Assembly: GCF_000429245.1 (NCBI RefSeq)
Contig: NZ_AUBM01000006.1
Location: forward strand, 379,051 to 443,050
Direction: 5' to 3'
Source: Schaalia georgiae DSM 6843
GTDB taxonomy: Bacteria > Actinomycetota > Actinomycetes > Actinomycetales > Actinomycetaceae
Length of the DNA: 64,000 bases
The notes beneath the pieces are model-generated. The model had not been told where the DNA came from. It saw only the letters and a list, made by a program, of their open reading frames with translations, and made no database searches. Positions 18,917-50,587 of this stretch are shown here, piece by piece; position 1 is the stretch's first letter, and every line of letters begins with the position of its first letter. The translations under genes and the position numbers were made by a program.

Positions 18917-18963
18917 GATACCACACTTCGCAAGTGTTATAACGCTTGCAAAGCGCCGGTATC
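18917..18963. repeat. GTTATAAC-centred palindrome downstream of purB
   Basis: GATACC...GGTATC outer arms enclose CGCAAGTGTTATAACGCTTG. The element lies between convergent purB and the 19007-19717 gene. It shares CAAG(T/C)GTTATAAC and the flanking AACTTCGCTTTC context with the element at 50538-50587. A partial arm copy, CACTTTGCAAGCGATACC, precedes it at about 18904. Confidence 0.85.
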
Positions 18964-19006
18964 CCTTTGAGAACTCAACTTCGCTTTCAAAACTCCCCGG
19001 CCAGGG

Positions 19007-19717
19007 TCACGGCCTCCAGGCGGGGTCCGAGGCGGGGGCGCCGTAGCGGGCGAAGAGCTCGTCGGGCCGCGCGATCTCGTCGGCGAAACCGATCGTCGTC
19101 ATATCCGCCAGGCATTCGGACTGGGCGCCGGGCTCCTCCAATTCCCCTCCGGTGGACTGCAGCACGCGGGCGCGCACGTTGACGGGCGCCATCTCGGGGT
19201 TGTCCCACAGCGCGCGGGTGACCCGGTCGAGCATCGGGACTGCCCCGCCGCCTCCGTCGGCGACGATAATGTCGGCGCTGACCAGGCTCGGCCGCCCGAA
19301 ACCCTCGCCGACCTCGACGAGGACGCGGGCAGCACCGCCCCGGGCGCCCTTGCGTTTCCCGCCGTCCGATCCCGCCCCACTGGCGGACAGGGGGGCACCG
19401 CCCGATCGCGGCCCCTTGGTGGCGCGCGATCCACGCCCATGGTGCGCGCCTCCCCCCGGGTGCGGTCCGGCCCCCGCCTCGTCGATCGCGGACCACACGA
19501 TGGCCTCGAAGCGCTGGGCCAGCCCCCCGCCCCGGGTCGTGGCGAGGGCCCGCCAGGCGATGCCCGCGCCCACGGCCCCGACGCCGAGCGCGCCGATGAC
19601 CAGCGGCCCTGCCAGTTGGGGCAGGCGACGGGTCGCTCCACCTGCGCCCGCTTTGTTGACCGGAGTCGATACGCGCATCCAACGCCGGACCTCGCGCCAG
19701 GGGGTCTGCTCGTTCAT
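19007..19717 (-). CDS. single-pass membrane protein of unknown function, coupled to an esterase gene
   Basis: 236 aa. A short cytoplasmic N-terminus precedes one membrane segment (LAGPLVIGALGVGAVGAGIAW, about 30-53). A Gly/Ser/Lys-rich linker (about 85-125) is followed by a C-terminal domain with VLVEVGEGFGRPSLVSADIIVAD and DRVTRALWDNPEMAPVNVRARVL. I do not recognise the family. Its ATG overlaps the stop of the upstream lipase-like gene (TCAT on the forward strand), so the two proteins are probably made together and may interact at the membrane. Confidence 0.7.
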   Translation of the reverse strand: MNEQTPWREVRRWMRVSTPVNKAGAGGATRRLPQLAGPLVIGALGVGAVGAGIAWRALATTRGGGLAQRFEAIVWSAIDEAGAGPHPGGGAHHGRGSRATKGPRSGGAPLSASGAGSDGGKRKGARGGAARVLVEVGEGFGRPSLVSADIIVADGGGGAVPMLDRVTRALWDNPEMAPVNVRARVLQSTGGELEEPGAQSECLADMTTIGFADEIARPDELFARYGAPASDPAWRP

Positions 19718-21204
19718 AGTCCCTTCACTCCTCTCAGAGCCGTGTTGCGAAGCGCCCGCCACGCGGCTCCGATGCCGCGGGCCGTGGCCGAGATCGGCCG
19801 GGCGCCCTCGTAGTCGATGGGGTAGGTGACCGCGCGGGGGTCGGCACGCTCCAGGGAGGCCACGGTGTTCCACGTGCTCACCGCTGTGGGCTCCAGCAGG
19901 TCCTGCCAGATCTCGTGGTGGGTGACGCGCACCTCCTCGCCCGGGGCGGGCAGCATGGCCCGCAGAGAGGCGACCGCCTTTCCGAGGCGGTCCCACGGAG
20001 CGACGGCCGCCCGGCGCTCCATGAGGCGCACGGTCTCGGTGTACGTGGCCGACGAGTGCGCGTAGTAGAGGGGCCGCTTGCGGGGACGCACCAGGGTCCT
20101 CCCGACGGTGACCCTGCGGTCGGGCGAGCGGTCGGGGCTGCCGTCCATACTCGGAACGACGTCCTGGTCGTGCGCGACCGCGATGATGGTGACGTCCGGG
20201 CGCACGGCGACCCGCCTGTTGGGCGCCCCGGTGGACAGGATGCCCACTACGTTGACGCCGGACTCGGAGGGGTCGCGCGAGGCCAGGACCGACGCGACGA
20301 GGCCCCCCTGGGAGTGGCCGCACACCAGGACGGGCTCGCTGCTCCACTGCTCCTCGGGGACGGAGTCGGCGGCCATCGCGCGGTGGAGGGCGGCCACTAG
20401 GCCGACGCCCATCGCCGAGTCGAGGCCCAGCATGAGGCGGATGTTCGCCTCGATGTCAGCGGGGTTGTGGGAGGAGCCGAATTGCATGCTCTCGGTGCCC
20501 ACCATGGACACGAGCCACCGGCGCGCCTCTCCCGTCCCCACGCGGCAGATCTTGATGACCGCCCCGGTGGTGGCCGCCCAGTAGAGCTCGTCGATGTCGG
20601 CGCACAGGTCGGCCAGGCACTCCGGCGGCGCCGCCCGGCGGATCTGCGCCTCTGGGTGCCCCCCGGGGGGCTCGAGCATGGCAGGATCGGCGGTGGAGTC
20701 CCTGATGATCCGCGTGTTGACACCGCCGCCCCTCCAGATCCCCACGGCGGTGCCGACGGTGAGCATCCCGGTCATGAGCGCGTCGAAGCCGCGCCTGGGT
20801 ATGAGCGGCAGGGAGGCGGCCAGGCGCCCATCGCGGTCGCGCCCCACCGCGATGGCGGCGCGCGCCCACAGGCGGCCCAGGAAGGCGAGGCGCCGGGCGG
20901 CGTGGGCCAGGGAGCGGACGACCAGGGTGTCCAGGCCGGGCTGGTCGAAGAACACCTTCTGCGCCTCCTCCGAGATGGCGCCGCCCATCGCGTCGGCCCT
21001 GGCGCGGGCCCGCTGGCGTGCGCCCTCGGGCAGGAACTGGGCGTCGGCGGCGGCTCCGACCGCTATGGTGGCGGCGATCCCGGGGATGATGGGCGCCAGG
21101 CGCAGCCGCAGGTAGATGCCGGAGTAGGCCTGGGGGACCCGGCGCAGGGAGTGGTAGCGGCGGCGTCTGCGGCGCGAGGCGCGCGCCCGTCGCTTTGCGG
21201 CCAT
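19714..21204 (-). CDS. lipase/esterase-like serine hydrolase, larger paralogous type
   Basis: 496 aa. A very basic N-terminus (RRARASRRRRRRYHSLRR) is followed by a hydrophobic segment (LAPIIPGIAATIAVGAAA), then helical sequence. A hydrolase core contains WLVSMVGTES and the nucleophile elbow VLVCGHSQGGLVASVLAS (S298), with AHDQDVVPSMDGSPD as the likely acid region. The sequence order (MVGT/LQGT, GHSQGG, D.D.VP.LD) parallels the 15520-16842 esterase, so the two are distant paralogues. The ATG at 21204 is preceded by GGGAAGGGAG. It forms a two-gene unit with the following membrane protein. Confidence 0.75.
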   Translation of the reverse strand: MAAKRRARASRRRRRRYHSLRRVPQAYSGIYLRLRLAPIIPGIAATIAVGAAADAQFLPEGARQRARARADAMGGAISEEAQKVFFDQPGLDTLVVRSLAHAARRLAFLGRLWARAAIAVGRDRDGRLAASLPLIPRRGFDALMTGMLTVGTAVGIWRGGGVNTRIIRDSTADPAMLEPPGGHPEAQIRRAAPPECLADLCADIDELYWAATTGAVIKICRVGTGEARRWLVSMVGTESMQFGSSHNPADIEANIRLMLGLDSAMGVGLVAALHRAMAADSVPEEQWSSEPVLVCGHSQGGLVASVLASRDPSESGVNVVGILSTGAPNRRVAVRPDVTIIAVAHDQDVVPSMDGSPDRSPDRRVTVGRTLVRPRKRPLYYAHSSATYTETVRLMERRAAVAPWDRLGKAVASLRAMLPAPGEEVRVTHHEIWQDLLEPTAVSTWNTVASLERADPRAVTYPIDYEGARPISATARGIGAAWRALRNTALRGVKGL

Positions 21205-21314
21205 GTGCTCCCTTCCCTCGCGGTGCGTCAATGCCAACTCTAAGGCCTCGGAGCGCGGGCGTCCGCGCTTTACGCGCGTCGGCCCGGGCTGTGCTCAGAA
21301 CCACCGCCCAACCA

Positions 21315-21343
21315 TCGACACGCATACCCCCTAGGGGTATATT
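21315..21343 (+). promoter_or_regulatory. copper-operon promoter with CsoR operator in the spacer
   Basis: TCGACA (21315-21320), 17-nt spacer, TATATT (21338-21343), with the csoR ATG 6 nt later (leaderless). ATACCCC-CTA-GGGGTAT (21324-21340) fills the spacer and overlaps the -10. It matches the pseudo-palindromic operators bound by CsoR repressors, so apo-CsoR would block RNA polymerase directly and Cu(I) would relieve it. Confidence 0.8.
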
Positions 21344-21349
21344 GATCCC

Positions 21350-21655
21350 ATGAGCGGCACGAACACGCACGGGCACCCCGGTTACTCCGCGGACACGGCG
21401 CGCTACCTCGCGCGCCTGCGCCGCATCGAGGGCCAGATCCGGGGCCTGCAGCGCATGGTCGCCCAGGACGAGTACTGCATCGACGTCCTCACCCAGGTCT
21501 CCGCGGTCCAGTCCGCGCTCGACTCCGTGGCCATCGCACTGCTCAAGGACCACATGAACCATTGCGTGGCCGCTGCCGCCCGCGAATCCGACGAGGCGGG
21601 GGCCGCCAAAGTCGAGGAGGCCACCACGGCCATCGCCCGCCTCATCAAGTCCTGA
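21350..21655 (+). CDS. csoR: CsoR copper-sensing repressor
   Basis: 101 aa, all-helical. The Cu(I) ligands C43, H68 and C72 have exactly the spacing of M. tuberculosis CsoR (Cys, +25 His, +4 Cys). ARLRRIEGQIRGLQRMV is the family signature. It is first in an operon with copZ and copA, under its own operator. It represses the copper-export genes until copper binds. Confidence 0.96.
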   Translation: MSGTNTHGHPGYSADTARYLARLRRIEGQIRGLQRMVAQDEYCIDVLTQVSAVQSALDSVAIALLKDHMNHCVAAAARESDEAGAAKVEEATTAIARLIKS

Positions 21656-21691
21656 CCCACTCGAACCAACAACCCACCAGGAGAGAGCACA

Positions 21692-21937
21692 ATGAGCACC
21701 GACATCGACCGCACCATCGAGCTGTCCGTCAACGGGATGACGTGCGGGCACTGCGTCATGAGCGTCACCGAGGAACTCCAGGAGATCCCGGGCGTGAAGA
21801 ACGTCGAGGTGATCCTCAACCCGCAGGGGGCCTCGAAGGTCACCGTTCTCACCGACGTCCCCCTCGACGACGCGGCCCTGTCCGACGCCGTTTCAGAGGC
21901 GGGCTTCGAACTGGCCGGGATCGCCCGGGACTTCTAG
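21692..21937 (+). CDS. copZ: CopZ-type copper chaperone
   Basis: 81 aa, a single heavy-metal-associated domain. GMTCGHC (C18, C21) binds Cu(I), and the ferredoxin-like fold runs to EAGFELAGI. AGGAGAG precedes the ATG. It delivers copper to the ATPase encoded next. A hairpin directly after its stop codon (21938-21961) may reduce read-through into copA. Confidence 0.95.
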   Translation: MSTDIDRTIELSVNGMTCGHCVMSVTEELQEIPGVKNVEVILNPQGASKVTVLTDVPLDDAALSDAVSEAGFELAGIARDF

Positions 21938-21961
21938 CCGAGGGGACCGCGGACCCCTCGG
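21938..21961 (+). terminator. hairpin between copZ and copA
   Basis: CCGAGGGG, 8-nt loop, CCCCTCGG, immediately after the copZ stop. There is no T-tract. A partial terminator or mRNA stabiliser giving more CopZ than CopA is inferred. Confidence 0.55.
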
Positions 21962-22021
21962 GGCACTCGGCCCGCCCAGGGCCCCCCGCGGCCGCGCCCC
22001 GGAACGGACAACACGCTCACT

Positions 22022-24673
22022 ATGACGACTACGACCACCGACCCCGCCGCGGTGCCCACGGCCCGGGCGGCCACCACCCGCATCGACCAGGACGCGCCCC
22101 GCATCGGCCAGGGCGCGCGCCGGACCGCGCGCGAACTCGCCCGCCGACTCACCATCAGCGCCCCCCTGGGACTTTTCGCGATGGCGGTGTCAATGGTGCC
22201 CGCCTGGCAGTTCCCGGGCTGGCAGTGGGCGGTTGCCCTCGCCTCCGTCCCCGTAGTGACGTGGGGGGCCTGGCCCTTCCACCGGGCCGCTTTCGCTGCG
22301 GGGCGCCACGGTTCGACCACGATGGACACCCTGGTTTCCCTGGGGGTCATCGCCTCGACCCTGTGGAGCTGGTGGGCGCTGCTGCTGGGCGGCGCGGGCG
22401 AAGTGGGGATGCGGATGAGCATGTCCCTGGTCCCCCGCGCCTCCCACTCGGGCCACGCCGAGATCTACTTCGAGGGCGCGTGCATGATCGTCGTCTTCCT
22501 GCTCACTGGCAGGTGGATGGAGGCCCGCGCCCGCTACCGCGCCGGCGACGCCCTGCGCGCCCTCCTCGAGCTCGGCGTCACGGAGGCGACTCTGGTCGAG
22601 CAGGGCCCCGACGGCGGGCGCGTCGAGCGGACGGTCCCCGCCTCGTCCCTGTCCGTCGGCGACCTGTTCCTGGTGCGCCCGGGCCAGAAGGTGGCGACCG
22701 ACGGCGTCGTCGTCTCCGGGGCGTCCGCCATCGACGCCTCCCTGCTCACCGGGGAGTCCGTGCCCGTGGACGTGCGCGAGGGGGACGCGGTCACCGGCGC
22801 CACCGTCAACACGTGGGGCGCCCTCACTGTGCGCGCCACCCGTGTCGGCGCCGACACAGCCCTGTCTCAGATCGGCCGTATGGTCGCCGAGGCACAGGCC
22901 GGCAAGGCCCCCGTCCAGCGCCTCGCGGACCGGATCTCCGGGGTCTTCGTGCCCGTCGTCATCGCTGTCTCCCTGCTCACCGCCATCGGGTGGCTGGCGT
23001 CGGGGGCCGCCCTCCAAGTCGCCCTCACCAGCGCCGTCGCCGTCCTGGTAGTCGCGTGCCCGTGCGCGCTGGGCCTGGCTACGCCGACCGCGCTGCTCGT
23101 GGGGTCGGGGCGCGCCTCGCAGCTGGGTATCGTCATCCGCAACGCCGAGGCCCTGGAGCGCACCCGCCGTATTGACACGGCCCTGCTGGACAAGACGGGG
23201 ACGGTGACCACCGGCCGCATGTCCCTGGAGTCGGCGCTGGGCGCCCCGGGGGTGGCCGACTCGGAGCTGCTGCGCATGGCAGCCGGGGCGGAGGCAGCCT
23301 CGGAGCACCCCCTCGCCCGCGCGATCGTAGCGGGGGCGGCCGAGCGCGGCATCGCCCCCGCCGCCACGTCCGCCTTCACGAACCAGGCGGGGCTGGGGGT
23401 GTGCGCCGTCCTCGACTCCGAGGCGGGGGCACTGGCACTCGTGGGCCGCGCCTCGTGGTTGGAGTCCCTGGGCGTCTCCATCGACGGCGCCCTGGCCGAC
23501 CGTCTGCGGGGCGCCGAGGCCTCGGGTGCCTCAGCGGTCGTCGTTGCCGTCGTCGAGGACTGGGAGCATACCCCCGCCGCCCCCGTGCCCGGAGCGCGCA
23601 GGGCTGGGCGGAGCGTCGACGACGGAACAGCACGGAGCGCCGACGACCGGGCCGTTCCGGGCGCCACCACGGTGACGATGAGCGTGGGCGGAATGACCTG
23701 CGCCTCGTGCGTGCGGCGCGTGGAGCGCAAACTCGGGAAACTCCCCGGCGTGTCCGCCTCGGTCAACCTGGCCACCGAGTCCGCGCGCATCACCCTCACC
23801 CGCCCCTATTCCGACCAAGAGTTGGAAGGCGTCGTCGGGGCCGCCGGGTACCAGGGCGCTGTGACCTCCCGCGTGGAGGACGGGGGCCAGGCTGCTGACG
23901 CCGCCACCGCCCGAGTGGACGCCGCAGGGATGTCCGTGGGCGCCATTGCCGGGGTGGACGCCGGGGTGCCCGCAGCGGGCGCCATCGCCCGTCAGATGGG
24001 CACCCGGGAATCCGTGGGATCCGGGGTCGCCCCGCAGGGATCCGGGGACGCCCCGCAGCCCGGACCTGGGCCGGACTCCCCTGTGATCGCCCTGCCCGAG
24101 CGCCTCACGGGAGCGCGGGTCCTGGGGGTCCTGGTCGTGCGCGACACAGTCAAGCCGACCTCCCGCGCCGCCATCGCCCAGTTGCGCTCCCTGGGCATCG
24201 AGCCCGTGCTGCTCACTGGCGACAACGAGGCGGCAGCGCGCCACGTCGCCTCCCAAGTGGGCATCGACCGCGTCATCGCGGGCGTCCTGCCCGACGGGAA
24301 GCGAGCGGCAGTCGCCGAGCTGCAGGAGCGCGGCGCCGTCGTGGCCATGGTGGGCGACGGAGTCAACGACGCAGCCGCACTGGCGCAAGCGTCACTGGGG
24401 ATCGCAATGGGTTCGGGCACGGACGTCGCCATCGAGGCCTCCGACATCACTCTGGCCGGATCCGACCTGGCCAGCGCGGCCACGGCGATCCGCATCTCGC
24501 GGCGCACACTGCACGTCATCAAGGAGAACCTGTTCTGGGCGTTCTTCTACAACGTCGCGATGGTGCCGCTGGCCATCGCGGGGTTGCTCTCCCCCATGCT
24601 CGCCTCCGCCGCCATGGCGTGCTCGTCGGTGTTCGTGGTCCTCAACTCCTTGCGCCTGCGCTCGGCGTCATGA
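22022..24673 (+). CDS. copA: P1B-type copper-exporting ATPase with internal metal-binding domain
   Basis: 883 aa. The membrane CPC motif is C346-P-C348, phosphorylation is at D390 (DKTGTVTTG), the HP motif of the nucleotide-binding domain at H429-P430, and TGDN at 732 and GDGVND at 778-783 complete the P-domain. The N-terminus before the first helix is short and carries no metal-binding domain. Instead a complete heavy-metal-associated domain with GMTCASC (C560, C563; about 548-618) lies within the nucleotide-binding domain. It comes after the VVVAVVED strand and before VLGVLVVRDTVKPTS, followed by a Gly/Ala/Asp-rich linker of about 70 residues. It exports Cu(I); MYxxxx and NSLRLR membrane elements near the end fit copper transport. 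It is third in the csoR-copZ-copA operon. Confidence 0.95.
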   Translation: MTTTTTDPAAVPTARAATTRIDQDAPRIGQGARRTARELARRLTISAPLGLFAMAVSMVPAWQFPGWQWAVALASVPVVTWGAWPFHRAAFAAGRHGSTTMDTLVSLGVIASTLWSWWALLLGGAGEVGMRMSMSLVPRASHSGHAEIYFEGACMIVVFLLTGRWMEARARYRAGDALRALLELGVTEATLVEQGPDGGRVERTVPASSLSVGDLFLVRPGQKVATDGVVVSGASAIDASLLTGESVPVDVREGDAVTGATVNTWGALTVRATRVGADTALSQIGRMVAEAQAGKAPVQRLADRISGVFVPVVIAVSLLTAIGWLASGAALQVALTSAVAVLVVACPCALGLATPTALLVGSGRASQLGIVIRNAEALERTRRIDTALLDKTGTVTTGRMSLESALGAPGVADSELLRMAAGAEAASEHPLARAIVAGAAERGIAPAATSAFTNQAGLGVCAVLDSEAGALALVGRASWLESLGVSIDGALADRLRGAEASGASAVVVAVVEDWEHTPAAPVPGARRAGRSVDDGTARSADDRAVPGATTVTMSVGGMTCASCVRRVERKLGKLPGVSASVNLATESARITLTRPYSDQELEGVVGAAGYQGAVTSRVEDGGQAADAATARVDAAGMSVGAIAGVDAGVPAAGAIARQMGTRESVGSGVAPQGSGDAPQPGPGPDSPVIALPERLTGARVLGVLVVRDTVKPTSRAAIAQLRSLGIEPVLLTGDNEAAARHVASQVGIDRVIAGVLPDGKRAAVAELQERGAVVAMVGDGVNDAAALAQASLGIAMGSGTDVAIEASDITLAGSDLASAATAIRISRRTLHVIKENLFWAFFYNVAMVPLAIAGLLSPMLASAAMACSSVFVVLNSLRLRSAS

Positions 24674-24703
24674 GCTGCGCGCTGTCGGCACCGCGAGGGG
24701 GTC

Positions 24704-24802
24704 GTCGACACGGACGCGAGTTGTCGACATCGTGAGGGGGTTGTCGACACCGCGAGGGGGTTATAACGCGCGTCGGTGTCGACAACGCGCGCTGGTGTCG
24801 AC
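24704..24802. repeat. GTTATAAC-centred palindrome inside a cluster of five GTCGAC sites
   Basis: GTCGAC occurs at 24704, 24723, 24743, 24778 and 24797. TTGTCGACACC (24741-24751) and GGTGTCGACAA (24775-24785) are perfect 11-bp arms around GAGGGGGTTATAACGCGCG. The 32 bp at 24741-24772 recur inverted at 38347-38378 with a single mismatch. The element lies downstream of copA with no gene. The rest of 24674-25100 holds only the 37-bp repeats and the MFS promoter. Confidence 0.88.
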
Positions 24803-24825
24803 AACGCGCGTCGGCGCCGGTTCCG

Positions 24826-24927
24826 GTGGCCATCGTCGGCGGCAGCGACCATCATCGGCGCCCGCGCATGGTCGCCGCCCTGGTGCTCATGTGGCCATCG
24901 TCGGCGGCAGCGACCATCATCGGTGCC
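24826..24927. repeat. two 37-bp direct repeats
   Basis: Copies at 24826-24862 and 24891-24927 begin GTGGCCATCGTCGGCGGCAG and differ at one position. The intervening CATGGTCGCCGCC can pair with the first copy. No coding function is seen. Confidence 0.85.
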
Positions 24928-25041
24928 GTGGGCGCGCACCCTGGGCACAAACACGAGGCGCGCACTCTATCCCCCAACTCGGGAACACAGATGCGCGGTA
25001 CCAACACGACACACAGAACAGCCTGTAACTTTACCATTTAT

Positions 25042-25071
25042 TTGCATTCTCTAGACGAATCAACGTAGGAT
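25042..25071 (+). promoter_or_regulatory. promoter of the MFS gene
   Basis: TTGCAT (25042-25047), 18-nt spacer, TAGGAT (25066-25071), in a locally AT-rich stretch. About 23 nt of leader includes a purine-rich GAGCAGGA before the ATG at 25101. Confidence 0.6.
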
Positions 25072-25100
25072 GGGGCCATCCACGAAGAGCAGGACGCGTC

Positions 25101-26291
25101 ATGAAGCCACTACGCACATGGCTCGCTGTAGCCGGAATCGTCGCCATTGGAGACCAGGCGTTCTTCGTCATCCTGAGCCTTTTCCTCCTCTCCTCCTACG
25201 GATCGGGGATCGCCGCTTCTTTCCTCACTGCCGCGTCGGTCGCGCGCCTGGCGCTCATCCTGGTCGGCGGTTGGACCGCGGACCGGTGGTCGCCCTACCG
25301 CTGCATCCAGGTGGGACTGGTCCTGCGCATCGCCTCGTTCCTCATCGTCGGCCTGGACTCCCTGGGAGGGCCCAGTGTTCCGCTCCTGTCATGCGGCGTG
25401 GTCCTATTCGGAGCGGGCGACGGCCTCTACCTGCCTTCGTCAGGAGCACTGCTGAAACGGCTCACCAACCACGGGGACTTCTCCCGCACCATCTCCTGGG
25501 TCCAAGTCATCACCAGTGTCGCCACGGGGCTCGCTGGCGTGACCAGCGGCTTCAGCTTCGAGGCCGTCCCGCTGCACAGCCTGTTCTTCTCCTTCGCACT
25601 GCTGGCGCTGGCCGCGTTCGCACTGTTCCACGCGATACCGGCCACCCCCTCGGCAGCGCCAGCGGCCGACAAGGCCCCCTCGGACCAGTCCCCTTCCAGC
25701 GCGAAGGCCTCGCTGCGAACCGTCATGATGACAAACGGCGGCACGGTCGCCGTTGGACTCCTCACGGCCCTTCTGATCGACGCGTCGTTATCGGGGGCAT
25801 TGAACATCGTGCTCCCCGCGCGCTACCTGGAACTGGGCTGGGGCGGCGGGAGCTTCGGCGTCGCGGTGTGCCTATTCGCCCTCGGCGGCGTTCTGGGCGG
25901 AACCATCGCCTCACGCATCCCGGCAGACCGTCCGTCACTGCGCAACGCGGTCATCAACGGCGGGATCCTCGTTTTCGCCGCGCTCACCTGCGCATTGTAT
26001 TTCGCGCTTTCGGAGCCGGTGTCGCTGGCGCTGGTGGCCGCTTTGGGGCTGTGCGCGGGAGTGGCCGCGCCGACGTTGATCGGCGACATCATGAACAACA
26101 CGCCCCCCGATTTCGCTGGGCGCGTCTACTCCGCGATCAACCTGGTGACCTACGGTTCAGCGCCCATCGCCTATGCGGCATGCGGGTTCCTCATGGCCCG
26201 CTTCTCGACAGCAGCGCCCTTCCTGGTGGGGGCGGCGCTGCTCGCACTCGGAGGCGCGGTCAGAGCGGCCACGACCTCGAGGTCGGAGTAG
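25101..26291 (+). CDS. major facilitator superfamily exporter
   Basis: 396 aa with about 12 membrane helices in two halves. The loop after helix 2 reads GGWTADRWSPYR, the MFS motif A position. The central cytoplasmic loop is Ala/Pro/Ser-rich (PSAAPAADKAPSDQSPSSAK). It resembles DHA1-type efflux or EntS-like permeases. Codon use is somewhat less G+C-biased than its neighbours and repeats lie directly upstream, so horizontal arrival is possible. The substrate is unknown. The gap to the next convergent gene (26292-26455) holds only a 19-bp imperfect repeat (26301 and 26366). Confidence 0.85.
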   Translation: MKPLRTWLAVAGIVAIGDQAFFVILSLFLLSSYGSGIAASFLTAASVARLALILVGGWTADRWSPYRCIQVGLVLRIASFLIVGLDSLGGPSVPLLSCGVVLFGAGDGLYLPSSGALLKRLTNHGDFSRTISWVQVITSVATGLAGVTSGFSFEAVPLHSLFFSFALLALAAFALFHAIPATPSAAPAADKAPSDQSPSSAKASLRTVMMTNGGTVAVGLLTALLIDASLSGALNIVLPARYLELGWGGGSFGVAVCLFALGGVLGGTIASRIPADRPSLRNAVINGGILVFAALTCALYFALSEPVSLALVAALGLCAGVAAPTLIGDIMNNTPPDFAGRVYSAINLVTYGSAPIAYAACGFLMARFSTAAPFLVGAALLALGGAVRAATTSRSE

Positions 26292-26455
26292 AACACCGCT
26301 GCGGCCAGAGGCGCCCCAGCTGGCGTCGCCCGCCCCCGGCCTGATGGAGCAGTACGCCCAGGAGCGCGGCCAGAGGCGTCCCAGACGAGCATCAGCCCGC
26401 AGGGCCCCATGCCCAGTGAGCCGAGGCGGAGCCGGGCCCGCCGAGCCCACCCGGT

Positions 26456-27976: not shown

Positions 27977-27984
27977 TGTGCCTC

Positions 27985-28821: not shown

Positions 28822-28893
28822 GGACAATATTGTAGGAGCGTTGGACGCTGAAGGCCCGCTGCACTCCCGACGTGTGGCTGATTAAGAAGAGCT

Positions 28894-31301: not shown

Positions 31302-31307
31302 AGCGCA

Positions 31308-32381: not shown

Positions 32382-32411
32382 ACAGCGGCTCCGCCCGCTT
32401 CGCGGACGACT

Positions 32412-35297: not shown

Positions 35298-35298
35298 G

Positions 35299-36847: not shown

Positions 36848-38245
36848 ATGAACATTCCCAAGTGGTTAGTCGCGGCTGTCCTGGGCGCCGGTGCCGTCGG
36901 GGCCGGGCGCGCGGCCGTTGCCCTGGCGAGACGGGCGAGGAGGCGCTCGGCGCTCTCGGTCCCCTCTCCCCCCGCCGACCCCGCCGAGGGGCTCTTGCGC
37001 CCCTGGATCATCATGAACCCCTCGAAGCACGAGGACCCCGCGGCGTTCCGCGCGCTCGTGGACCGCGCCGCGATGGACCTGGGCGCCGGCCCGCCCCACT
37101 GGTTGGAGACCACGCGGGAGGACCCCGGGGCGGGGCAGGCCGTGGAGGCCGTCTCACGGGGAGCGGCCATCGTGATCGCGGCGGGCGGCGACGGCACGGT
37201 GCGCGCGGTCGCCGCAGGCATGGCGGGGTCGGGCGTGCGCATGGGGATCCTGCCGGTGGGGACGGGGAACGTCCTGGCGGGCAACCTCGGGCTCCCCGAC
37301 GACCCGGCCGCCGCGATGGCGGTCGCCCTGGGCGAGTACCACCGCAACGTCGACCTCACGTGGGTGCGCCTCGACGGGGTCGAGGATGCGTCCCCCCTGC
37401 CCGCCGAGGGCGGCCTCGTGCTCGCGGCCCACGCGGCCCGTCCCCCGGAACCGGAGCCCGCGCCGCTATCCGGCTCCCCCGGCCCCGCGATCGAACCGGA
37501 CGGCCCCGGCCGCCCTTCGGAGGCGGACCCCGCTCCCGGACCGGGGGACGGGGCGCCCGTGCCGGCGCCCGACGGAACCGGGCTCGGTCCCAACGGCGCG
37601 ACGCCCCTGCCCGCACCGGACGAGTACGCGTGCGCCGTCGTGGCGGGCATGGGATTCGATGGGCAGACCATGGCGGGCACGCACGCCGCGCTCAAGAAGC
37701 AGTTCGGGTGGATCGCCTACGTCCTGGCGGGCCTGGGCTCCATCGGAGCGCCCCGCCTGCGCGCCCAGCTCACGCTGCGCAGCCCCGAGGCGCGCGAGAG
37801 CGCGCCCATCGACCCCGGGGACTCCCTGGTCGGCACTCCGAGGGGCGACGATGAGGTGACGCGCGTGGAGGCGCGCTCAGTGATGTTCGCGAACTGCGGG
37901 GAGCTGAAATTCGTGCTGCTGGCCCCTGATGCGAACCTCAGCGACGGTCTGATCGACGTGATCGCAGTCGACGCCCAGGCGGGGCTGCTGGGTTGGGCGG
38001 ATGTCACCTGGAAGTTCTTGGGGCAGCTGGTGGGGCTGCGGCCGCTGAACCTGCCGGTATCGACGGGAACGGTGGCGTTCCGCCAGGCGCGGGGCGCGTC
38101 GGTGGTCGCGCAGACCGCGCAAGCGGTCCAGGTCGATGGTGACGCACTGGGGACCGCGCGCACGATGCGGGTGAGGATTCAGCCCGACGCCCTCGACGTG
38201 GCGGTTCCAGCTGAGAGGACGTGGATGGAGCTCCTCCCCGGATAG
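36848..38245 (+). CDS. diacylglycerol/sphingosine-kinase-like lipid kinase
   Basis: 465 aa. A membrane segment near the N-terminus (WLVAAVLGAGAVGAGRAAVAL) is followed by a DAGK catalytic domain. WIIMNPSKHEDPAAF is its first strand, and AAGGDGTVRAVAAGMAG carries the ATP-binding GGDGT (about 110). LPVGTGNVLAGNLGLP comes next. The domain is interrupted by an insertion of about 70 Pro/Gly/Asp-rich residues (about 185-255), after which it resumes at YACAVVAGMGFDGQTM. The product probably phosphorylates a lipid at the membrane. TACTCT is 6 nt before the ATG (leaderless). Confidence 0.9.
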   Translation: MNIPKWLVAAVLGAGAVGAGRAAVALARRARRRSALSVPSPPADPAEGLLRPWIIMNPSKHEDPAAFRALVDRAAMDLGAGPPHWLETTREDPGAGQAVEAVSRGAAIVIAAGGDGTVRAVAAGMAGSGVRMGILPVGTGNVLAGNLGLPDDPAAAMAVALGEYHRNVDLTWVRLDGVEDASPLPAEGGLVLAAHAARPPEPEPAPLSGSPGPAIEPDGPGRPSEADPAPGPGDGAPVPAPDGTGLGPNGATPLPAPDEYACAVVAGMGFDGQTMAGTHAALKKQFGWIAYVLAGLGSIGAPRLRAQLTLRSPEARESAPIDPGDSLVGTPRGDDEVTRVEARSVMFANCGELKFVLLAPDANLSDGLIDVIAVDAQAGLLGWADVTWKFLGQLVGLRPLNLPVSTGTVAFRQARGASVVAQTAQAVQVDGDALGTARTMRVRIQPDALDVAVPAERTWMELLPG

Positions 38246-38346
38246 GGGGCCGCAGGGCCCGGGGGACGCCACAGGGCCAGGGGGCGTCGCCCTCCGGGCC
38301 GACGGCGGCCACCGGCACGGACGCCGACGCGCGTTATCGGCACCAG

Positions 38347-38378
38347 CGCGCGTTATAACCCCCTCACGGTGTCGACAA
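38347..38378. repeat. GTTATAAC-centred element, inverted copy of the one at 24741-24772
   Basis: CGCGCGTTATAACCCCCTC, A, CGGTGTCGACAA: reverse complement of 24741-24772 with one mismatch over 32 bp. It lies between the convergent lipid kinase gene and pheA and contains one GTCGAC (38371). The rest of 38246-38491 is non-coding. Confidence 0.9.
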
Positions 38379-38439
38379 GGCGCGTCCGCACTCGCACCCG
38401 GGCGCGCCGCCCCGGTAGCGGCCCCCTTATCCGCCGGAT

Positions 38440-38531
38440 GAGCGGCCAGTCGGGGGCGGCACCACCGTCCCCGGGACAGCGCGCCGATCCCCTACCGCGG
38501 CGCGAGCGGCCAGTCGGGGGCGGCACCACCG
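38440..38531. repeat. 28-bp direct repeat across the pheA 3' end
   Basis: GAGCGGCCAGTCGGGGGCGG plus 8 further identical bases occurs at 38440-38467 and 38504-38531. The second copy encodes the GAAPDWPLA tail of PheA; the first lies beyond its stop. Confidence 0.9.
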
Positions 38532-42049: not shown

Positions 42050-42056
42050 GCGGCCC

Positions 42057-42740
42057 TTACTCCGCCCCGGCGATGTGCTGCCCGGCGGCGCCCTTGTGGC
42101 GCTTGCCCACGACCTCGATGACGACGGGGAGCACGGAGACCACGATGATGACAGCCAGGATCACACTGAGGTTGTCGTGGATGAAGGGCACGTTGCCCAG
42201 GAGCGCTCCGACGACGAGGAACCCCGCGCCCCACAGGAGGGCGCCGAGGGTGTTGAAGAAGACGAACTTCGTGTACGGGTAGCGCGCGATCCCCGCGGCG
42301 AGGGGGATGAAGGTGCGCACGAAGGGGATGAAGCGCCCGATGACCAGGGAGCGCCCCCCGTAGTTGGTGAAGTAGTGCTCGGCCTTCTCCAGGTGCGCCG
42401 TCTTGAGGATCCTCGCGTCCGGTTTGAAGAAGCGCCTGCCCCATTTGGCCCCCAGGAAGTAGCCGATCTGGGCGCCCACGAAGGCTGCGGCCACCGTCCC
42501 GAGGACGAGGGCCGGCAGGTTCAAGCCGAGTTTGTCGTGCAGCAGTCCCGCCGTGAACAGCAGGGACTCGCCCGGGAGCACGGGGAAGAGGACCCCGGAC
42601 TCGATGAGGACGATGAGCAGCGTCCCCCACAGGACCCAGGGCCCCATGGCGACGAGCAGTGATTCGGGGTCCTTGAACCACCCGATGAATGTGTCCAGCG
42701 CAGAGGGCGCGGAAGCTGCTGCCAGAGTTGACCAGGTCAC
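42057..42740 (-). CDS. DedA/VTT-domain membrane protein
   Basis: 227 aa. FPVLPGESLLFTAGLL near the N-terminus and RFIPFVRTFIPLAAGIARYPYTKFVFFN are the DedA signatures, with the conserved Arg and Pro residues of the VTT domain. About five membrane segments. DedA proteins act as undecaprenyl-phosphate or phospholipid translocases. The GTG start at 42740 follows GGAAGGG. It is the upstream partner of the DUF6541 gene, which fits recycling of a lipid carrier used by a GT-C-like enzyme. Confidence 0.93.
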   Translation of the reverse strand: MTWSTLAAASAPSALDTFIGWFKDPESLLVAMGPWVLWGTLLIVLIESGVLFPVLPGESLLFTAGLLHDKLGLNLPALVLGTVAAAFVGAQIGYFLGAKWGRRFFKPDARILKTAHLEKAEHYFTNYGGRSLVIGRFIPFVRTFIPLAAGIARYPYTKFVFFNTLGALLWGAGFLVVGALLGNVPFIHDNLSVILAVIIVVSVLPVVIEVVGKRHKGAAGQHIAGAE

Positions 42741-42814
42741 GAAGGGCCCTTCCGTCGGGGGAATCGTATCCCCATTACCCTACCTTTCCCACCGGTAAAG
42801 CTAGGATAACCGGC

Positions 42815-45502: not shown

Positions 45503-45559
45503 CACTCCGGCCGCCGCCGGTCCCCGCCGCACCTGCTGACGCGGCCGCCCCGGGGTCTG

Positions 45560-45580
45560 GACGGGGCCGCGCGCCCCGTC
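45560..45580 (+). terminator. hairpin after the flippase fusion gene
   Basis: GACGGGG, 7-nt loop, CCCCGTC, 58 nt after the stop, followed by TATCGT, which may be the -10 of the protease gene. It is a modest stem without a T-tract. Confidence 0.4.
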
Positions 45581-45632
45581 TATCGTGGAGAATGCGCCTG
45601 TTCCTCCTACTATCGAAGCAAAGGAAGATCCC

Positions 45633-46661
45633 ATGACGCATTCAACACGACCGCTCCGCGCGTTCGCGGTGGCGCTCCTCGCCACCGCCTCCTCCCTCGC
45701 CGCCGCCGGCATGGCCCAGGCCGCGCCCGCGGCCCCCACCGACGTCGTCACCTACGACGCCCCCGGATCGGAGTCCGCCGACTGGTCGACGGACAACGAC
45801 CTGGACGCGACCGGTTACTGGACCCCGGAGAGGATGCGCAACGCCATCCCCGTGGACTCGGACCCCGAAGCCGCCCCGGATCCCACTTTCCCCCAGCCCC
45901 CCTCGGGCACTTCCCTGCTGTCGGCGCCCGTGGCGCCCGACTCCGCGCCCGTCGACCTCACCGAGCCCGTGGAGCCCGCGTCGGGCGACAGCCCCACGAT
46001 GCTGCTCGGCAATCAGGTGTACGTGCCCATCACCACGGGCAAGGTGTTCTACTCCGTGGGCAGCAACGACTACGTGTGCTCCGGTTCATCGATCAACACC
46101 CCGGGCAAGTCGATGGTCGCCACCGCCGCCCACTGCCTCCACGCGGGTGCGAAGGGCACCTGGCACTCGCGCATCGCCTACGCGCCCGCCTACTCCAACG
46201 GCACGACCCCCTTCGGCCTATGGCACATGAAGACCGGGACCGCTTTCACCGGGTGGACGGACAGGTCGGACGCCCGGTACGACTACGGTTTCTTCATCGT
46301 CTACCCGCTCAACGGCAGGTACCTGGTGGACCGCGTGGGCGGCAACGGCCTGACCTACAACCGCGGCACGACGAACAAGGGCGTCCGCATCTGGGGCTGG
46401 CCCGCCGCTGCGCCCTTCGACGGGAACCGCCCCTACCACTGCGACGGGGACACCTTCGCCCACAACGCCTGGGGGGACATGGCGATGAATTGCAGGATGA
46501 ACGGCGGTTCCAGCGGCGGCCCGTGGCTGACCGACACCTCCTCGGCCACTGTCGGCCGCGTCTTCGGCGTCACCTCGCGCATGACCACCTCGGGCCCTCC
46601 TCGCCTCATCTCGAGGCCGTTCAACGAGGACGTCGTCAGGCTCTACAAGACGCTGGAGTAA
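45633..46661 (+). CDS. secreted trypsin-like (S1-family) serine protease
   Basis: 342 aa. A signal peptide runs to about MAQAAPA (30). A propeptide-like region carries TGYWTPERMRNAIPVD (about 66-82). The protease domain has the catalytic triad H167 (TAAHC), D217 (RYDYGFF) and S294 (GGSSGGPW). Cysteines around the active-site histidine suggest a disulfide. The type is common among secreted actinobacterial glutamyl-endopeptidase-like proteases. An AAAGGAAG box precedes ATG 45633. Its stop is 3 nt before the start of a small gene that shares the YWTxxRMRNA motif. Confidence 0.92.
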   Translation: MTHSTRPLRAFAVALLATASSLAAAGMAQAAPAAPTDVVTYDAPGSESADWSTDNDLDATGYWTPERMRNAIPVDSDPEAAPDPTFPQPPSGTSLLSAPVAPDSAPVDLTEPVEPASGDSPTMLLGNQVYVPITTGKVFYSVGSNDYVCSGSSINTPGKSMVATAAHCLHAGAKGTWHSRIAYAPAYSNGTTPFGLWHMKTGTAFTGWTDRSDARYDYGFFIVYPLNGRYLVDRVGGNGLTYNRGTTNKGVRIWGWPAAAPFDGNRPYHCDGDTFAHNAWGDMAMNCRMNGGSSGGPWLTDTSSATVGRVFGVTSRMTTSGPPRLISRPFNEDVVRLYKTLE

Positions 46662-46664
46662 CCG

Positions 46665-46925
46665 ATGGGACGGTATCGACACAGCCGCATGGCGGTCCTG
46701 GTCTCGGCGGTGGCCGTAGTGGGCGTCCTCGTCGCCCTGTACGCCTGGAGCACGGCGGTGGGACGCGAACCCGGCACAACGGACCCCAGCCCCTCGGTGT
46801 CCCAGTCCGACCCCTCGTCGGAATCCACCGCGACCCACGTGCCCTACGACCAGAGCGCCCAGTCCTACTGGACGGAGGACCGCATGCGCAATGCGGAGCC
46901 AGCGGAAATGCCATCCGCTCCTTAG
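46665..46925 (+). CDS. membrane-anchored propeptide-like small protein
   Basis: 86 aa. An N-terminal basic stretch and one membrane segment or uncleaved signal (MAVLVSAVAVVGVLVALYAW) precede a Ser/Pro/Thr-rich spacer. The protein ends SYWTEDRMRNAEPAEMPSAP. The YWT(E/P)(D/E)RMRNA element is the same as in the propeptide of the protease encoded 3 nt upstream, but no protease domain follows. It may be a regulator or inhibitor that mimics the propeptide, or the stump of a duplicated protease gene. Confidence 0.75.
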   Translation: MGRYRHSRMAVLVSAVAVVGVLVALYAWSTAVGREPGTTDPSPSVSQSDPSSESTATHVPYDQSAQSYWTEDRMRNAEPAEMPSAP

Positions 46926-46940
46926 CCTCCTGCTGGAAGG

Positions 46941-46980
46941 GGGGTCGGCGCGCCTCGATCATTCGCGGCGCGCCGACCCC
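46941..46980. terminator. bidirectional terminator hairpin
   Basis: GGGGTCGGCGCGCC, 12-nt loop, exact complementary 14-nt arm, between the convergent small gene and the 1043-aa secreted protein gene. TTCATC follows on the forward strand and no long T-run is present. Confidence 0.8.
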
Positions 46981-47009
46981 TTCATCACTGGTTGTGTCCC
47001 GCGCAGGGG

Positions 47010-50000
47010 TCAGTGCCTCAACTCCCCTGTGGGCTCGAAGAAGCGCCAGTACCCGTCGATGTGGCGCCAGCCGGTCGTCATCTTGCCGGAGTCCCCCAGG
47101 TAGTACCAGGATCCCTCGATCTTCTGCCAGCCGGTGGTCATATGGCCCGCGGCGTTCAGGTAGTACCAGGTTCCACCGTCATTGACCCAGCCGATCGCCA
47201 TAGCACCCCAACCGGGGATCAGGTAGTACCAGGCGCCACCATCGACCAACCAACCAGTGGACATCGCACCAGAAGCCCCATGGTGGAACCAGTACCCGCC
47301 ATCACGCACCCAACCAGTGCGCGCATGCCCCGACTCGTCGAAACGGTACGTCGCACCATCGATCACCAGGGCCTGACCACGCGGATACGTCCCATCGCCG
47401 AACCGGTACCACCAACCAACAGAATCCCGCACCCACTGGCCCTCACCAGGCACCGGAGCAGAAGGCACGGCAGAACCCACCACACCAGCGACCACACGGA
47501 ACGTGATATCCCTCGTCTCGACGCGCAACGACGCCCCATCAACCAACGGAACCCACGTGAAGCGCACCCACGAGGAGAGCACTCCCCCGTCGGCGCCGTC
47601 GGGTGACGGATCACTGTCGTAGGCCGAATTCCAGTCGGAGACGACGGTCTCAGCGCCGCCGGGCCCGATCTCGATGGCGCGGGCCTCGCGTCCGACGGAG
47701 ACGCCGCCGGTCAGCGTGGCCGTCACCTCAATGGTCTGGCCCGCCTCCACCTGGACCTTCGAGGCATCCCCCACCTGGTCGATCACAGGCGAGGACAACG
47801 ACAGAGCCGGATCCACATACCGGTGCAGCTGGGACGCCGGATCCAAACCGGCCTTCTCCATAGCCGCCCTGGCCACCGACCACGCGACCGACCCCTCACC
47901 GGCAGCCACGTACACGTGAGAGGCGGCGAGCTGCTCGGCCTTGAGGGCGCCTGTGGTGAGGACGAGCTCCTCGACGGTGGAGGGGAGCACCAGGGTCTGC
48001 GGGAAGTTGCCGTGGGTGTAGGCGATCCGCTTCATGCCCTCGCCGAAGAAGGCGGACGCGGCGTACCTGGGGGTCGTTTCCTCCGGGGATGTGAAGGAGC
48101 CGTCCTTACCGCCGCGCACAATCATGCGGATGGGCAGGGCGCCGGTGAAAGCGGCCTCCCCGATGGTGCGGGTCCGCGCGCCGAACTCGATGGTCCCGAC
48201 CCGGGTCCCCGCGAAGACGTCGGCCACCTCCTCCAGGGAGTCGGGCAATGCCACGTCGGTGAGTTCGGGGATCTCTGCGAAGGCCTCGGCCCCGATGGCC
48301 TTCACGCCCTCGGGGACGACCACTTCGCGCAGCGTTGGAATGCCCTTGAAAGCGGCCTCGTCGATCTGCGCCGTCCCGGGGCGCACCGAGTACGCGGGCG
48401 TGGGGGCGGCGACAGCGGCGTAGACCAAATGGCACCCGTCGTCGCGCTGCTGGTAGAGGACGGAGCCATCCAGCGAGAGCACGGGGTTGGAGGGGGCGAG
48501 GCTCAGGGAGGCGAGCGCGGTGGAGCCGGTGAAAACGCGCGCGCCCACCTCGGTCAGGCCCGAGCCCAAGTGGACATCCTTCAGCTCGGGACTGCGGGCG
48601 AACGCCTGGTCGCCGAGGGAGGCGACGGAGTCGGGTAGAGCGGCCGAGACGAGCCCCGTCTCGGCGAAGGCGTAGGAGCCGATAGCAGTGAGACGGCCCA
48701 GGTCCGCCCTGAAGTCGACCGTTCGCAGGGCGCGCGAGGCGAAGAACGCCTCCTCGCCGATGGTCTTCGTGCCGCCCAAGTCCACCCGGGCCAGCGAGGG
48801 CATCGCCCAGAACGCGGATTCCTCGAGGGCCTGGAAGCCCTTGGGAAGCACCACGGACTCCAGGCCGGAGCCGCTGAAGGCCTTGTTCCCGATGCTGCGC
48901 AGCGAGTCGGGCAGTACGATCCCGGTCAAGGCCGCCCCGAAGACGGCGGAGGGCTCGATGCGGGTCGTCCCGTCGAGCACGGTGTACGTGCCACCACTGC
49001 CCTTCGCGGCCGGGTAGGCGACCAGGCCCGTGCGGTCCTTGGAGTAGAGCACGCCGTCGACCGCCTCGTAGGAGGCGTTGGCGGGGTCGGCCGTGAAGGC
49101 GCCGAGTTGAGGGGATCCGGCGAAGACAGTGGACAATTGCCCGGCGGCCACACCGCGCCCGATGTGGACGCGGGTGAGGGATCCGTTCCCACCGAATGCC
49201 GAGCCCCCGACGGTGGTGACGGAGTCGGGGATGGCGAGTTCACTGATACCAGTGTTGTTGAAGGCGAACTCACCGATGGAGGCCAAGCCCTCATTGAGGC
49301 CCACGTGGGCGAGGTTCGGGGTTTCCGCGAACGCGCCGTAGCCGACGGAGCGCACGGAGGCGGGCAGGTCGATGGAGCGCAGTCCCGACTCGGTGAACGC
49401 GTCTCGCCCAATGGTCACGAGGGAGAAGGGGAATCCCGCAGCGGCCGAGCCGTCGGCCTGGCGGACACCCAGTCCTCTGAGTTCGCGCGCACTGCGGAAA
49501 GCGGAGTCGCCGATCTCGGTGACCCCGTCGCCCACGACCACTTCCTCGAGCAGTCCGGTGCCTTGCGCCATGCGAGCGGGGAGCGAGGTGAGGGAGTCGG
49601 GCAGCGACAAGCGGGTGATGCCGGAGCTCGCGAAGGCTCCCTCGCCGAGGGAGGCAGTCTTCGCCGGCACGGTGATCTCCGTGAGGGCGAGCGTGTTCAA
49701 GGCCACTTCGGCGCCGAGGGCGGTGAGCTGGGAGGGGTGATCGGCGGTGTCCTCGAAGACCAAGGTCTTCAGCTGCCGGGCATCGGCGAACGCCCTGTCG
49801 CCGATGGTGCGGACGGTGGAGGGGACGGTGATGCGCTCGGCGGTGGTGCCGCGCATCGCCTCGTCGGCGATCGCCGTGACCTTGCCGGGGATCCTGACGT
49901 CGCTGGCGGAGCCGGTGTAGCGCAGGAGCACGCCGTTGGCGTCGATCTCGAAGCCGTCTTCGTTGGTTGTGGCGCCGACGGCGGGTTTGAGCGCGGACGA

Positions 50001-50141
50001 GGCGGGGCTGGACGAGGCGGGGGCCGCGGCCTGGTCGCGGCCGCCTGGAAGCGCTTGTGCTGGTGCTGCGAAAGCTGCGCCCCCGATTAACGCTCCTGTG
50101 AGCGCGATCGCGAGCGCGCCGCGTGGCATATGGGGAGTCAT
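47010..50141 (-). CDS. secreted BspA-type leucine-rich-repeat protein with cell-wall-binding repeats
   Basis: 1043 aa. The signal peptide ends near AFAAPAQA (about 32). BspA-like LRR_5 repeats span about 60-727, with units such as LPDSLTSLP and IGDRAFADA. A paralogous beta-rich module (about 735-870, including YVDPALSLSSPVIDQVGD) follows. The C-terminus has about six 20-residue aromatic/Gly repeats of the GWxxDGGxWYY type (about 905-1043) resembling choline/glucan-binding cell-wall repeats. There is no LPxTG or membrane anchor, so surface attachment is through the C-terminal repeats. BspA-type proteins are adhesins for host matrix and other bacteria. The C-terminal third is nearly identical in DNA to the end of the 2403-aa neighbour. 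Confidence 0.9.
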   Translation of the reverse strand: MTPHMPRGALAIALTGALIGGAAFAAPAQALPGGRDQAAAPASSSPASSALKPAVGATTNEDGFEIDANGVLLRYTGSASDVRIPGKVTAIADEAMRGTTAERITVPSTVRTIGDRAFADARQLKTLVFEDTADHPSQLTALGAEVALNTLALTEITVPAKTASLGEGAFASSGITRLSLPDSLTSLPARMAQGTGLLEEVVVGDGVTEIGDSAFRSARELRGLGVRQADGSAAAGFPFSLVTIGRDAFTESGLRSIDLPASVRSVGYGAFAETPNLAHVGLNEGLASIGEFAFNNTGISELAIPDSVTTVGGSAFGGNGSLTRVHIGRGVAAGQLSTVFAGSPQLGAFTADPANASYEAVDGVLYSKDRTGLVAYPAAKGSGGTYTVLDGTTRIEPSAVFGAALTGIVLPDSLRSIGNKAFSGSGLESVVLPKGFQALEESAFWAMPSLARVDLGGTKTIGEEAFFASRALRTVDFRADLGRLTAIGSYAFAETGLVSAALPDSVASLGDQAFARSPELKDVHLGSGLTEVGARVFTGSTALASLSLAPSNPVLSLDGSVLYQQRDDGCHLVYAAVAAPTPAYSVRPGTAQIDEAAFKGIPTLREVVVPEGVKAIGAEAFAEIPELTDVALPDSLEEVADVFAGTRVGTIEFGARTRTIGEAAFTGALPIRMIVRGGKDGSFTSPEETTPRYAASAFFGEGMKRIAYTHGNFPQTLVLPSTVEELVLTTGALKAEQLAASHVYVAAGEGSVAWSVARAAMEKAGLDPASQLHRYVDPALSLSSPVIDQVGDASKVQVEAGQTIEVTATLTGGVSVGREARAIEIGPGGAETVVSDWNSAYDSDPSPDGADGGVLSSWVRFTWVPLVDGASLRVETRDITFRVVAGVVGSAVPSAPVPGEGQWVRDSVGWWYRFGDGTYPRGQALVIDGATYRFDESGHARTGWVRDGGYWFHHGASGAMSTGWLVDGGAWYYLIPGWGAMAIGWVNDGGTWYYLNAAGHMTTGWQKIEGSWYYLGDSGKMTTGWRHIDGYWRFFEPTGELRH

Positions 50142-50220
50142 GGCCGTTCCAATGGTCGAGGGGGCGGGGAGTGGGGACGGCCATGGACGGCAGTCCCTGA
50201 TTCCATTAACGGTATTGGTT

Positions 50221-50280
50221 ATTCATTACCACTTCAAGCAATTTATCATACGGCATTATAAATAGCGCGTATTCATTACC
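50221..50280 (-). promoter_or_regulatory. AT-rich promoter region of the 1043-aa surface protein gene
   Basis: A reverse-strand TATAAT lies at 50260-50255, about 115 nt before the ATG, in an exceptionally AT-rich stretch. ATTCATTACC is repeated exactly at 50221-50230 and 50271-50280, one copy on either side of the -10, a possible operator pair. No convincing -35 is seen. Confidence 0.5.
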
Positions 50281-50418
50281 GCTTAATCGTTCGATTGAGC
50301 AACTAGTCGTCCGGCGGACTGAGCCGCCTTCTCATTGGAGTCCGGGGCACCGGGCGCCTCCGGTCCGGGCTCGCCCCTGGCCTGCCGACAGTGGCGTTCC
50401 GCATAGTTGTGCAATCGC

Positions 50419-50521
50419 TTGGCGGTCGGGGCGGAGCACGGGCTGTTTTGCAAGCGTTGCCCGACTGCGTGCGGCCGAGCTCCTTGGTGGTCGGGGCGGA
50501 GCACGGGCTGTTTTACAAGCG
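50419..50521. repeat. two 38-bp direct repeats
   Basis: Copies at 50419-50456 and 50484-50521 (TTGG(C/T)GGTCGGGGCGGAGC and on to CAAGCG) differ at two positions. They lead directly into the GTTATAAC palindrome. They are part of the 951-bp gene-free interval 50142-51092. Confidence 0.88.
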
Positions 50522-50537
50522 AAGTTGAGTTTTCAAA

Positions 50538-50587
50538 GGGCTACCACACTTTGCAAGCGTTATAACACTTGCAAAGTGTGGTAGCCC
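50538..50587. repeat. 50-bp GTTATAAC-centred palindrome
   Basis: GGGCTACCACACTTTGCAAG and its exact reverse complement flank CGTTATAACA; only the two bases beside the GTTATAAC core break the symmetry. It is the most perfect member of the family (others at 18917, 24741 and 38347). Confidence 0.93.

Follow-up and report, generated by a model that had tools for sequence, protein, structure and literature searches.

The 64,000-nucleotide stretch of Schaalia georgiae DSM 6843 analysed here (contig NZ_AUBM01000006.1, positions 379,051 to 443,050; referred to as the window) carries four intergenic palindromes built around the octamer GTTATAAC. We propose, with moderate confidence, that these palindromes are the centres of non-autonomous dyad elements, resembling bacterial interspersed mosaic elements (BIMEs) and miniature inverted-repeat transposable elements (MITEs), which would be copied between gaps and read through their core by a DNA-binding factor. 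A previous sequence-only reading of the window had offered a protein-binding site, a mobile element of the repetitive extragenic palindrome (REP) type or a processed RNA as explanations for a constant core with variable arms. The analysis described below retains a dispersed class of intergenic REP-like palindromes, the core of which fits a factor that reads it, and finds no support for a link to a REP-associated tyrosine transposase (RAYT), for variable arms within a family or for a conserved RNA stem.

The octamer is far more frequent in the window than expected by chance, as had been supposed, with four matches, whereas 100 dinucleotide-shuffled sequences contained 0.01 on average. In the whole genome (2,498,023 bp in 23 contigs), GTTATAAC was found at 37 places, compared to six for a reversed control pattern. 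Across 34 congeners the octamer occurs 0 to 7 times per genome (median 2, total 72), and in many of these genomes it is outnumbered by the control pattern. All 37 genomic sites are palindrome centres: 24 belong to a family of elements termed A (among them a weak match on contig C15, E 1.8e-5), 12 to a second family, B, and one to neither. The genome-wide count had been suggested as a way to refute the sequence-only reading, by finding the octamer at background frequency or equally outside palindromes, and it gave neither outcome. These counts refute the idea that an AT-rich octamer merely recurs by chance in DNA of high GC content, and we give it practically no weight. The remaining site (L016:2002) lies in a perfect palindrome in which GTTATAAC is flanked by arms of 15 bp (L016:1987-2024); this palindrome is outside the repeat families and is probably the operator of a regulator.

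Two subtypes had been distinguished in the window, and both exist: family A at 18.9 and 50.5 kb and family B at 24.7 and 38.3 kb, the two B copies matching at 31 of 32 bases as claimed. Family A is an imperfect palindrome with a defined orientation, about 120 bp long, in which one half typically contains TTTTGCAAGCGAAG..TTTTCAAAGGGATACC and the other GGTATCGCTGTGAAAGCGGAGGTATCGCTGTGAAAAC. Its arms beside the octamer are nearly continuous, and its first half is often flanked by extra copies of its own unit at a spacing of 61-65 bp. Family B is composed of 20-bp direct repeats arranged head to head, with GTTGTCGACAC-type units running inward from both sides. Its arms start about nine bases from the octamer, and the spacers beside the octamer are conserved and non-complementary (CGTGAGGGG to one side of it and GCGCG(CT/TC)GG to the other). 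In alignments of octamer-selected copies, where the octamer is invariant by construction, 55 of 122 columns were invariant among 21 copies of family A, including the arm CTTTGCAAG, and 39 of 48 columns among 10 copies of family B. When the octamer was not required, 24 of the 26 places matched by the family A model in the genome still contained GTTATAAC. The 22 intact genomic copies of family B are centred on GTTATAAC in 12 cases and on GATATAAC in 10, the second base of the octamer being polymorphic across them. Within a family, the arms are therefore as conserved as the octamer, contrary to the sequence-only reading; the notable point is that unrelated arms share the same octamer.

This point is extended by a third family, C, in which CATTGGGGCAGGTTA units repeated every 20 bp face inverted ones, usually around the centre GTTAATAAC; it occupies several gaps that also hold family A or B. 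These three sequence-unrelated families have a common centre, which is GTTATAAC in A, GTTATAAC in 12 of the 22 copies of B, and GTTAATAAC, with one extra base, in C. A core common to unrelated arms would agree with a factor recognizing that core, and the support for a special core comes from comparing families and species rather than from any variation of the arms. Two further families have a plan similar to that of A, B and C but lack the GTTA core. These are family D (GTGGTCCAAAAAGCGTCTGAGT at 52-bp spacing) and family F (CCGCACACAAGGG at 34-bp spacing), both arranged two facing two, with D and F loci at L025:1266-1451 and L030:2588-2760, L016:3203 and L019:2204, and in the sister species at L084 and L123.

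Families A, B and C were found in two of 35 genomes of the genus, this one and its sister Pauljensenia hongkongensis. The family A model matched 26 places here, 13 in P. hongkongensis and none in the 33 other genus genomes, with about 100 candidates scored per genome. When genome contigs were scanned with the A core pattern, P. hongkongensis HKU8 was the sole match, in a collection that possibly does not contain the present genome. The B core model, applied with stricter filters, matched 2 of 213 genomes of the family Actinomycetaceae, and the exact C core is present in 21 copies here, 19 in the sister and none in the 33 other genus genomes.

All four window copies lie, as had been claimed, in gaps between called genes (18868-19007, 24673-25101, 38245-38492 and 50129-51093); the gene calls come from a simple model of codon usage, for which the window itself was the training set, and the gap limits are approximate. 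The same was observed for each of 39 elements examined in the genome, representing 24 of the 26 A places and 15 of the 22 intact B places (two of these, 0.35 kb apart on C3, share one gap). The gaps are convergent in 20 cases, tandem in 15 and divergent in four. Convergent gaps are thus favoured (20 of 39 compared to 22% expected by gap length, p 8e-5); divergent gaps are depleted, with borderline significance when weighted by length (p 0.055) and more clearly when counted (p 0.005).

Orthologous gaps of the two species, matched by synteny, were then compared. The sister has no family B element at window 24760, window 38352 and L031, the compared stretches being free of N: the first gap contains a different inverted-repeat array of the CGCACACAAGGG type instead, the second is nearly empty, and the third stretch is 240 bp shorter. 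Presence and absence, which the sequence-only reading had proposed as a check, was thereby seen at some orthologous gaps. The family A model (E up to 1) detected no element in the mapped sister gaps of L012, L013, L023, L025, L027 and L030, three of which (L013, L025 and L030) contain 50 N each; the sister stretch of L014 is mostly N. The sister gap matching the 50.5-kb A element holds a degenerate A copy (50 bits), and the ortholog of the 18.9-kb copy is likewise degenerate, with the centre GTGATAAC on the + strand in the ortholog alignment.

Where elements occupy the same gap in both species, they often differ in version. Intact B copies are present in both species in six gaps, four of which (L016, L019, L028 and L029) have GTTATAAC here and GATATAAC in the sister, and two (L018 and L167) have GATATAAC in both. 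All eight intact sister copies are centred on GATATAAC and none on GTTATAAC, compared to 12 of 22 with GTTATAAC here (Fisher p 0.01); the sister has two more B places, neither of them intact. The centre of family C is TTAATAA in 20 of 21 matches here versus 2 of the 19 sister matches, 13 of which have CAATTTG (Fisher p 4e-8, or 3e-5 when TTATTAG types are pooled with TTAATAA). At orthologous gaps, a C element centred on GTTAATAAC here often has a counterpart centred on GCAATTTGC in the sister; TTAATAA in this genome is matched by CAATTTG in the other at three gaps (L020/L068, L021/L069 and L024/L072). Orthologous B elements are 60-81% identical over 113 nt, with flanks at 83-97%. In each of the six pairs the best paralog in this genome is closer than the ortholog, and in five of them the best sister paralog is closer as well. 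Two sister B paralogs are 98% identical over 113 nt and 81% over 558 bp. Family A copies have a mean identity of 84% here and 66% in the sister, and the identity of A orthologs is lower than the own-paralog mean in six of nine pairs. This is partial, species-specific turnover, which may have run in either direction.

To account for these observations, we suggest that each element consists of direct repeats that run toward a central dyad and are mirrored opposite. Such elements would be copied from gap to gap, at times as composite blocks, either by transposition or by gene conversion, and older copies would be partly overwritten, leaving each genome with its own prevailing version. From the phased half-sites and the common core we infer a recombinase-like DNA-binding protein supplied in trans, which would recognize both the half-sites and the GTTA/TAAC core; insertion may be tolerated mainly downstream of genes. 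Families A and B have dyad arms and MITE-like inverted ends, the exact positions of which are not fixed, and no gene is called across the 39 elements. Since the enzyme and a target duplication were not found, we do not claim that the elements are MITEs or REPs.

Several observations weigh against this proposal. Nine, probably ten, of the 13 sister A places share gaps with A copies here, which means that much of the dispersal is old, and homogenization could be achieved by gene conversion without mobility. Some orthology signal is kept in family B, where ortholog identity (0.60-0.81) is above the cross-species mean of 0.70 in four of six pairs, and the identity of A orthologs is above the own-paralog mean in three of nine pairs, clearly so for the 18.9-kb window copy. 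The C pattern was written from two centres already seen, and further centres exist; the Fisher tests given above assume independent copies, an assumption that copied elements violate. A search that covered the Y1 family only connected no transposase with the elements. At the two cleanest filled and empty sites (window 38352 and L031 versus the sister) no target-site duplication was observed, and the extra DNA exceeds the element.

Loci L025, L026 and L030 have in common noncoding blocks, 593-1081 bp long and 91-93% identical, that contain families A and C, the longest (1081 bp) also containing family D. Blocks that include non-dyad DNA argue against the elements being fixed multi-site operators of at least one chromosomal protein that binds DNA, whether a nucleoid protein or a regulator, as do the rarity of divergent-promoter gaps (four of 39) and the sister's lack of such an element at L031 and in two of the window's four gaps. 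Under this alternative, the similarity of the copies would arise through selection for binding, and species differences through changed protein specificity. It is favoured by sequence being kept rather than pairing, by the GTTA/TAAC centres common to three families here, and by spacings of 20, 32, 52 and ~62 bp, which are close to whole helical turns; within intergenic sequence of the window and of the octamer loci, the spacing of exact direct repeats peaks at 20, 32, 39-40, 52 and 59-65 bp. On balance, we consider operators a rather doubtful explanation.

The 50.5-kb A element folds at -68.5 kcal/mol (z -11.1), and the B fold is weaker (z -5.3). These very stable folds, together with the bias toward convergent gaps, would agree with RNA hairpins in 3' untranslated regions, acting as terminators, mRNA stabilizers or processed RNAs. 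However, among 21 sequences of the A stem two pairs had changed on both sides compared to 2.1 in shuffled columns, which gives no support for selection on pairing, although the power of this test is limited because the copies are young. The B spacers are conserved yet non-complementary, the Rfam gathering score was reached in the window by one tRNA only, and for most A copies the gene ends are hundreds of bases away. RNA hairpins are therefore an unlikely explanation, and a conserved RNA structure was rejected, its deep fold lacking the backing of covariation. Finally, REP elements or their paired forms (REPINs) moved by a RAYT (Y1 tyrosine) transposase would likewise be dispersed, intergenic, palindromic and at times clustered in composites, but this reading was rejected as highly improbable: PF01797 has no match in the genome (a gene hidden in an assembly gap among the 23 contigs being the sole escape) versus matches in 5 of 14 control genomes, and the present units are arranged differently and exceed the 20-40 bp stated for REPs in PMC3733652, which includes a GTAG (or CGTC) tag at one end in the definition of REPs and REPINs.

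A further class of repeats was observed in the same genomes, in which a direct repeat, a filler and a second copy of the repeat follow at a spacing of 59-66 bp. With known-family motifs excluded and each place counted once, 51 such places were found in 0.80 Mb of this genome (6.4 per unit distance versus ~0.8 at spacings of 41-58 and 67-85) and 15 in the 0.53 Mb sampled from the sister (1.9 versus ~0.5). Two other congeners, G006 and G016, sampled at 0.2 Mb each, had two and one; the excess at 67-85 in G006 may represent CRISPR arrays. Of the 51 places, 21 are in tiled stretches not selected for the octamer, and a few represent repeats within surface-protein genes, 20-21 codons in length; the 59-66 peak is less pronounced in a 400-kb tiled sample of this genome than in element-rich loci. 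Comparison with the sister identified three cases as insertions here, of 60 bp (L027), 65 bp (L022) and 64 bp (window 38431), and the indel spectrum between the two genomes, which comprises only 66 indels, has a modest cluster at 50-70 bp. The fillers of 53 events were compared with about one third of the own genome and sampled sister DNA. Five beat the best shuffled control, matching B-family DNA, surface-protein repeats, a CRISPR repeat and, in two cases, sister DNA, and most fillers had no match; of the two sister matches, the one between L199 and L209 is probably the orthologous site.

The genome also contains a type I-E CRISPR-Cas locus (C2:284627-295130, L143) with 18 exact repeats at a 61-bp period and matches to cas2e, cas1e, cas6e, cas5e, cas7e, cse2, cse1 and cas3. 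At L012:1148-1237 (C2, 313.7 kb), with a family A element nearby, an isolated CRISPR repeat of type I-E-like sequence, which differs from the array at one base of a 24-nt pattern, forms the filler between perfect 28-nt direct repeats. This filler and the 61-bp array made off-target integration by Cas1-Cas2 an attractive source, which was rejected because repeat and filler lengths are too variable compared to the constant ~28 and 33. Like type I-E arrays, the insertions add a repeat plus an insert with a period near 61; unlike them, their repeats vary from 17 to 55 nt at periods of 59-66, and a CRISPR-repeat sequence was found in L012 only. We regard the class as a separate mutational signature. 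In a joint reading, a single undescribed trans-acting recombination factor would serve several unrelated dyad families via a GTTA(0-1 nt)TAAC core. A change in the factor or its preference would allow the matching subfamily to sweep the genome and overwrite old elements at existing sites, and the 59-66-bp insertions would provide raw material for new arms. We put this forward as a speculation that is probably wrong in its full form.

The features of the window are listed in the table. The two genes around the 50.5-kb A element (47010-50141 and 51093-58304) encode surface proteins that combine BspA-type leucine-rich repeats with choline-binding-like repeats; a subtilase domain is present in addition in the larger one. 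Near their 3' ends, the two genes share two 300-nt stretches that are 95 and 99% identical and another at 68%.

Table. Repeat elements of the window, with further repeat-filler-repeat examples from other loci
Feature	Position	Strand	Details
GTTATAAC octamers	18936-18943; 24760-24767; 38352-38359; 50559-50566		
Family A element	18879..18997	-	R1 match 107.1 bits; octamer 18936-18943; convergent 138-bp gap
Family A element	50506..50624	+	R1 match 128.2 bits; octamer 50559-50566; between two leucine-rich-repeat surface-protein genes
Pair of 39-nt repeats (65-bp spacing) that end in the A left-arm unit	50418..50521	+	Upstream of the 50.5-kb A element; family D18
Family B element	24680..24812	+	GTTGTCGACAC-type units, 20-bp spacing, flanking GTTATAAC (24760-24767); R2 core 24743-24787, 57.7 bits
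Family B element	38320..38400	-	Octamer 38352-38359; R2 61.8 bits at 38332-38378; convergent gap
Family C element	13815..13890		Two CATTGGGGCAGGTTA units facing two inverted; centre TTAATGA
Family C element	50667..50742		Centre GTTAATAAC; near the 50.5-kb A element
Repeat-filler-repeat, 37 + 27 + 37 nt, spacing 64	38431..38531	+	Repeat present once in the sister
Repeat-filler-repeat, 37 + 28 + 37 nt, spacing 65	24826..24927	+	Adjoins the 24.7-kb B element
Repeat-filler-repeat examples	L027:1602; L022:1723; L051:1679; L012:1148		

Intergenic palindromic repeats have mostly been discussed together with RAYT transposases or as orphan families. The present species pair offers a clean system, with gap-by-gap orthologs, differing prevailing cores and unrelated families with one core, in which the spread and homogenization of such elements, by transposition, conversion or selection for binding, can be tested directly. 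Judging by titles and the beginnings of abstracts, none of the papers retrieved for the octamer GTTATAAC together with palindromes deals with these elements. The elements were absent among the matches listed for literature on repeats of Actinomyces and Actinomycetaceae, on P. hongkongensis, on concerted evolution and on non-canonical spacer integration. A term search of the P. hongkongensis genome paper (PMC5383905) returned no mention of repeats, CRISPR, transposition, intergenic DNA or insertion sequences.

Among known systems, the elements are similar to MITEs in being non-coding and dispersed with inverted ends, and their internal direct repeats recall the Porphyromonas gingivalis MITE that carries an internal minisatellite (PMC4596501). 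Unlike for MITEs, no target-site duplication was seen at the two cleanest sites, and no parent transposon was found in the search of the Y1 family alone. They share with BIMEs and REP/REPIN systems the short intergenic palindromic repeats, the clustering of inverted partners and the lineage-specific sequence types; they differ in the lack of a Y1/RAYT match, in the arrays of 20-bp direct repeats that meet at the core, and in their 48-120-bp units. ERIC is an imperfect intergenic palindrome of similar size, and BOX is modular with a variable number of internal repeats. By these general descriptions, and not by a comparison of sequences, family A resembles ERIC and family B resembles BOX. In contrast to both, unrelated families here share a core, and their versions differ between species at orthologous gaps.

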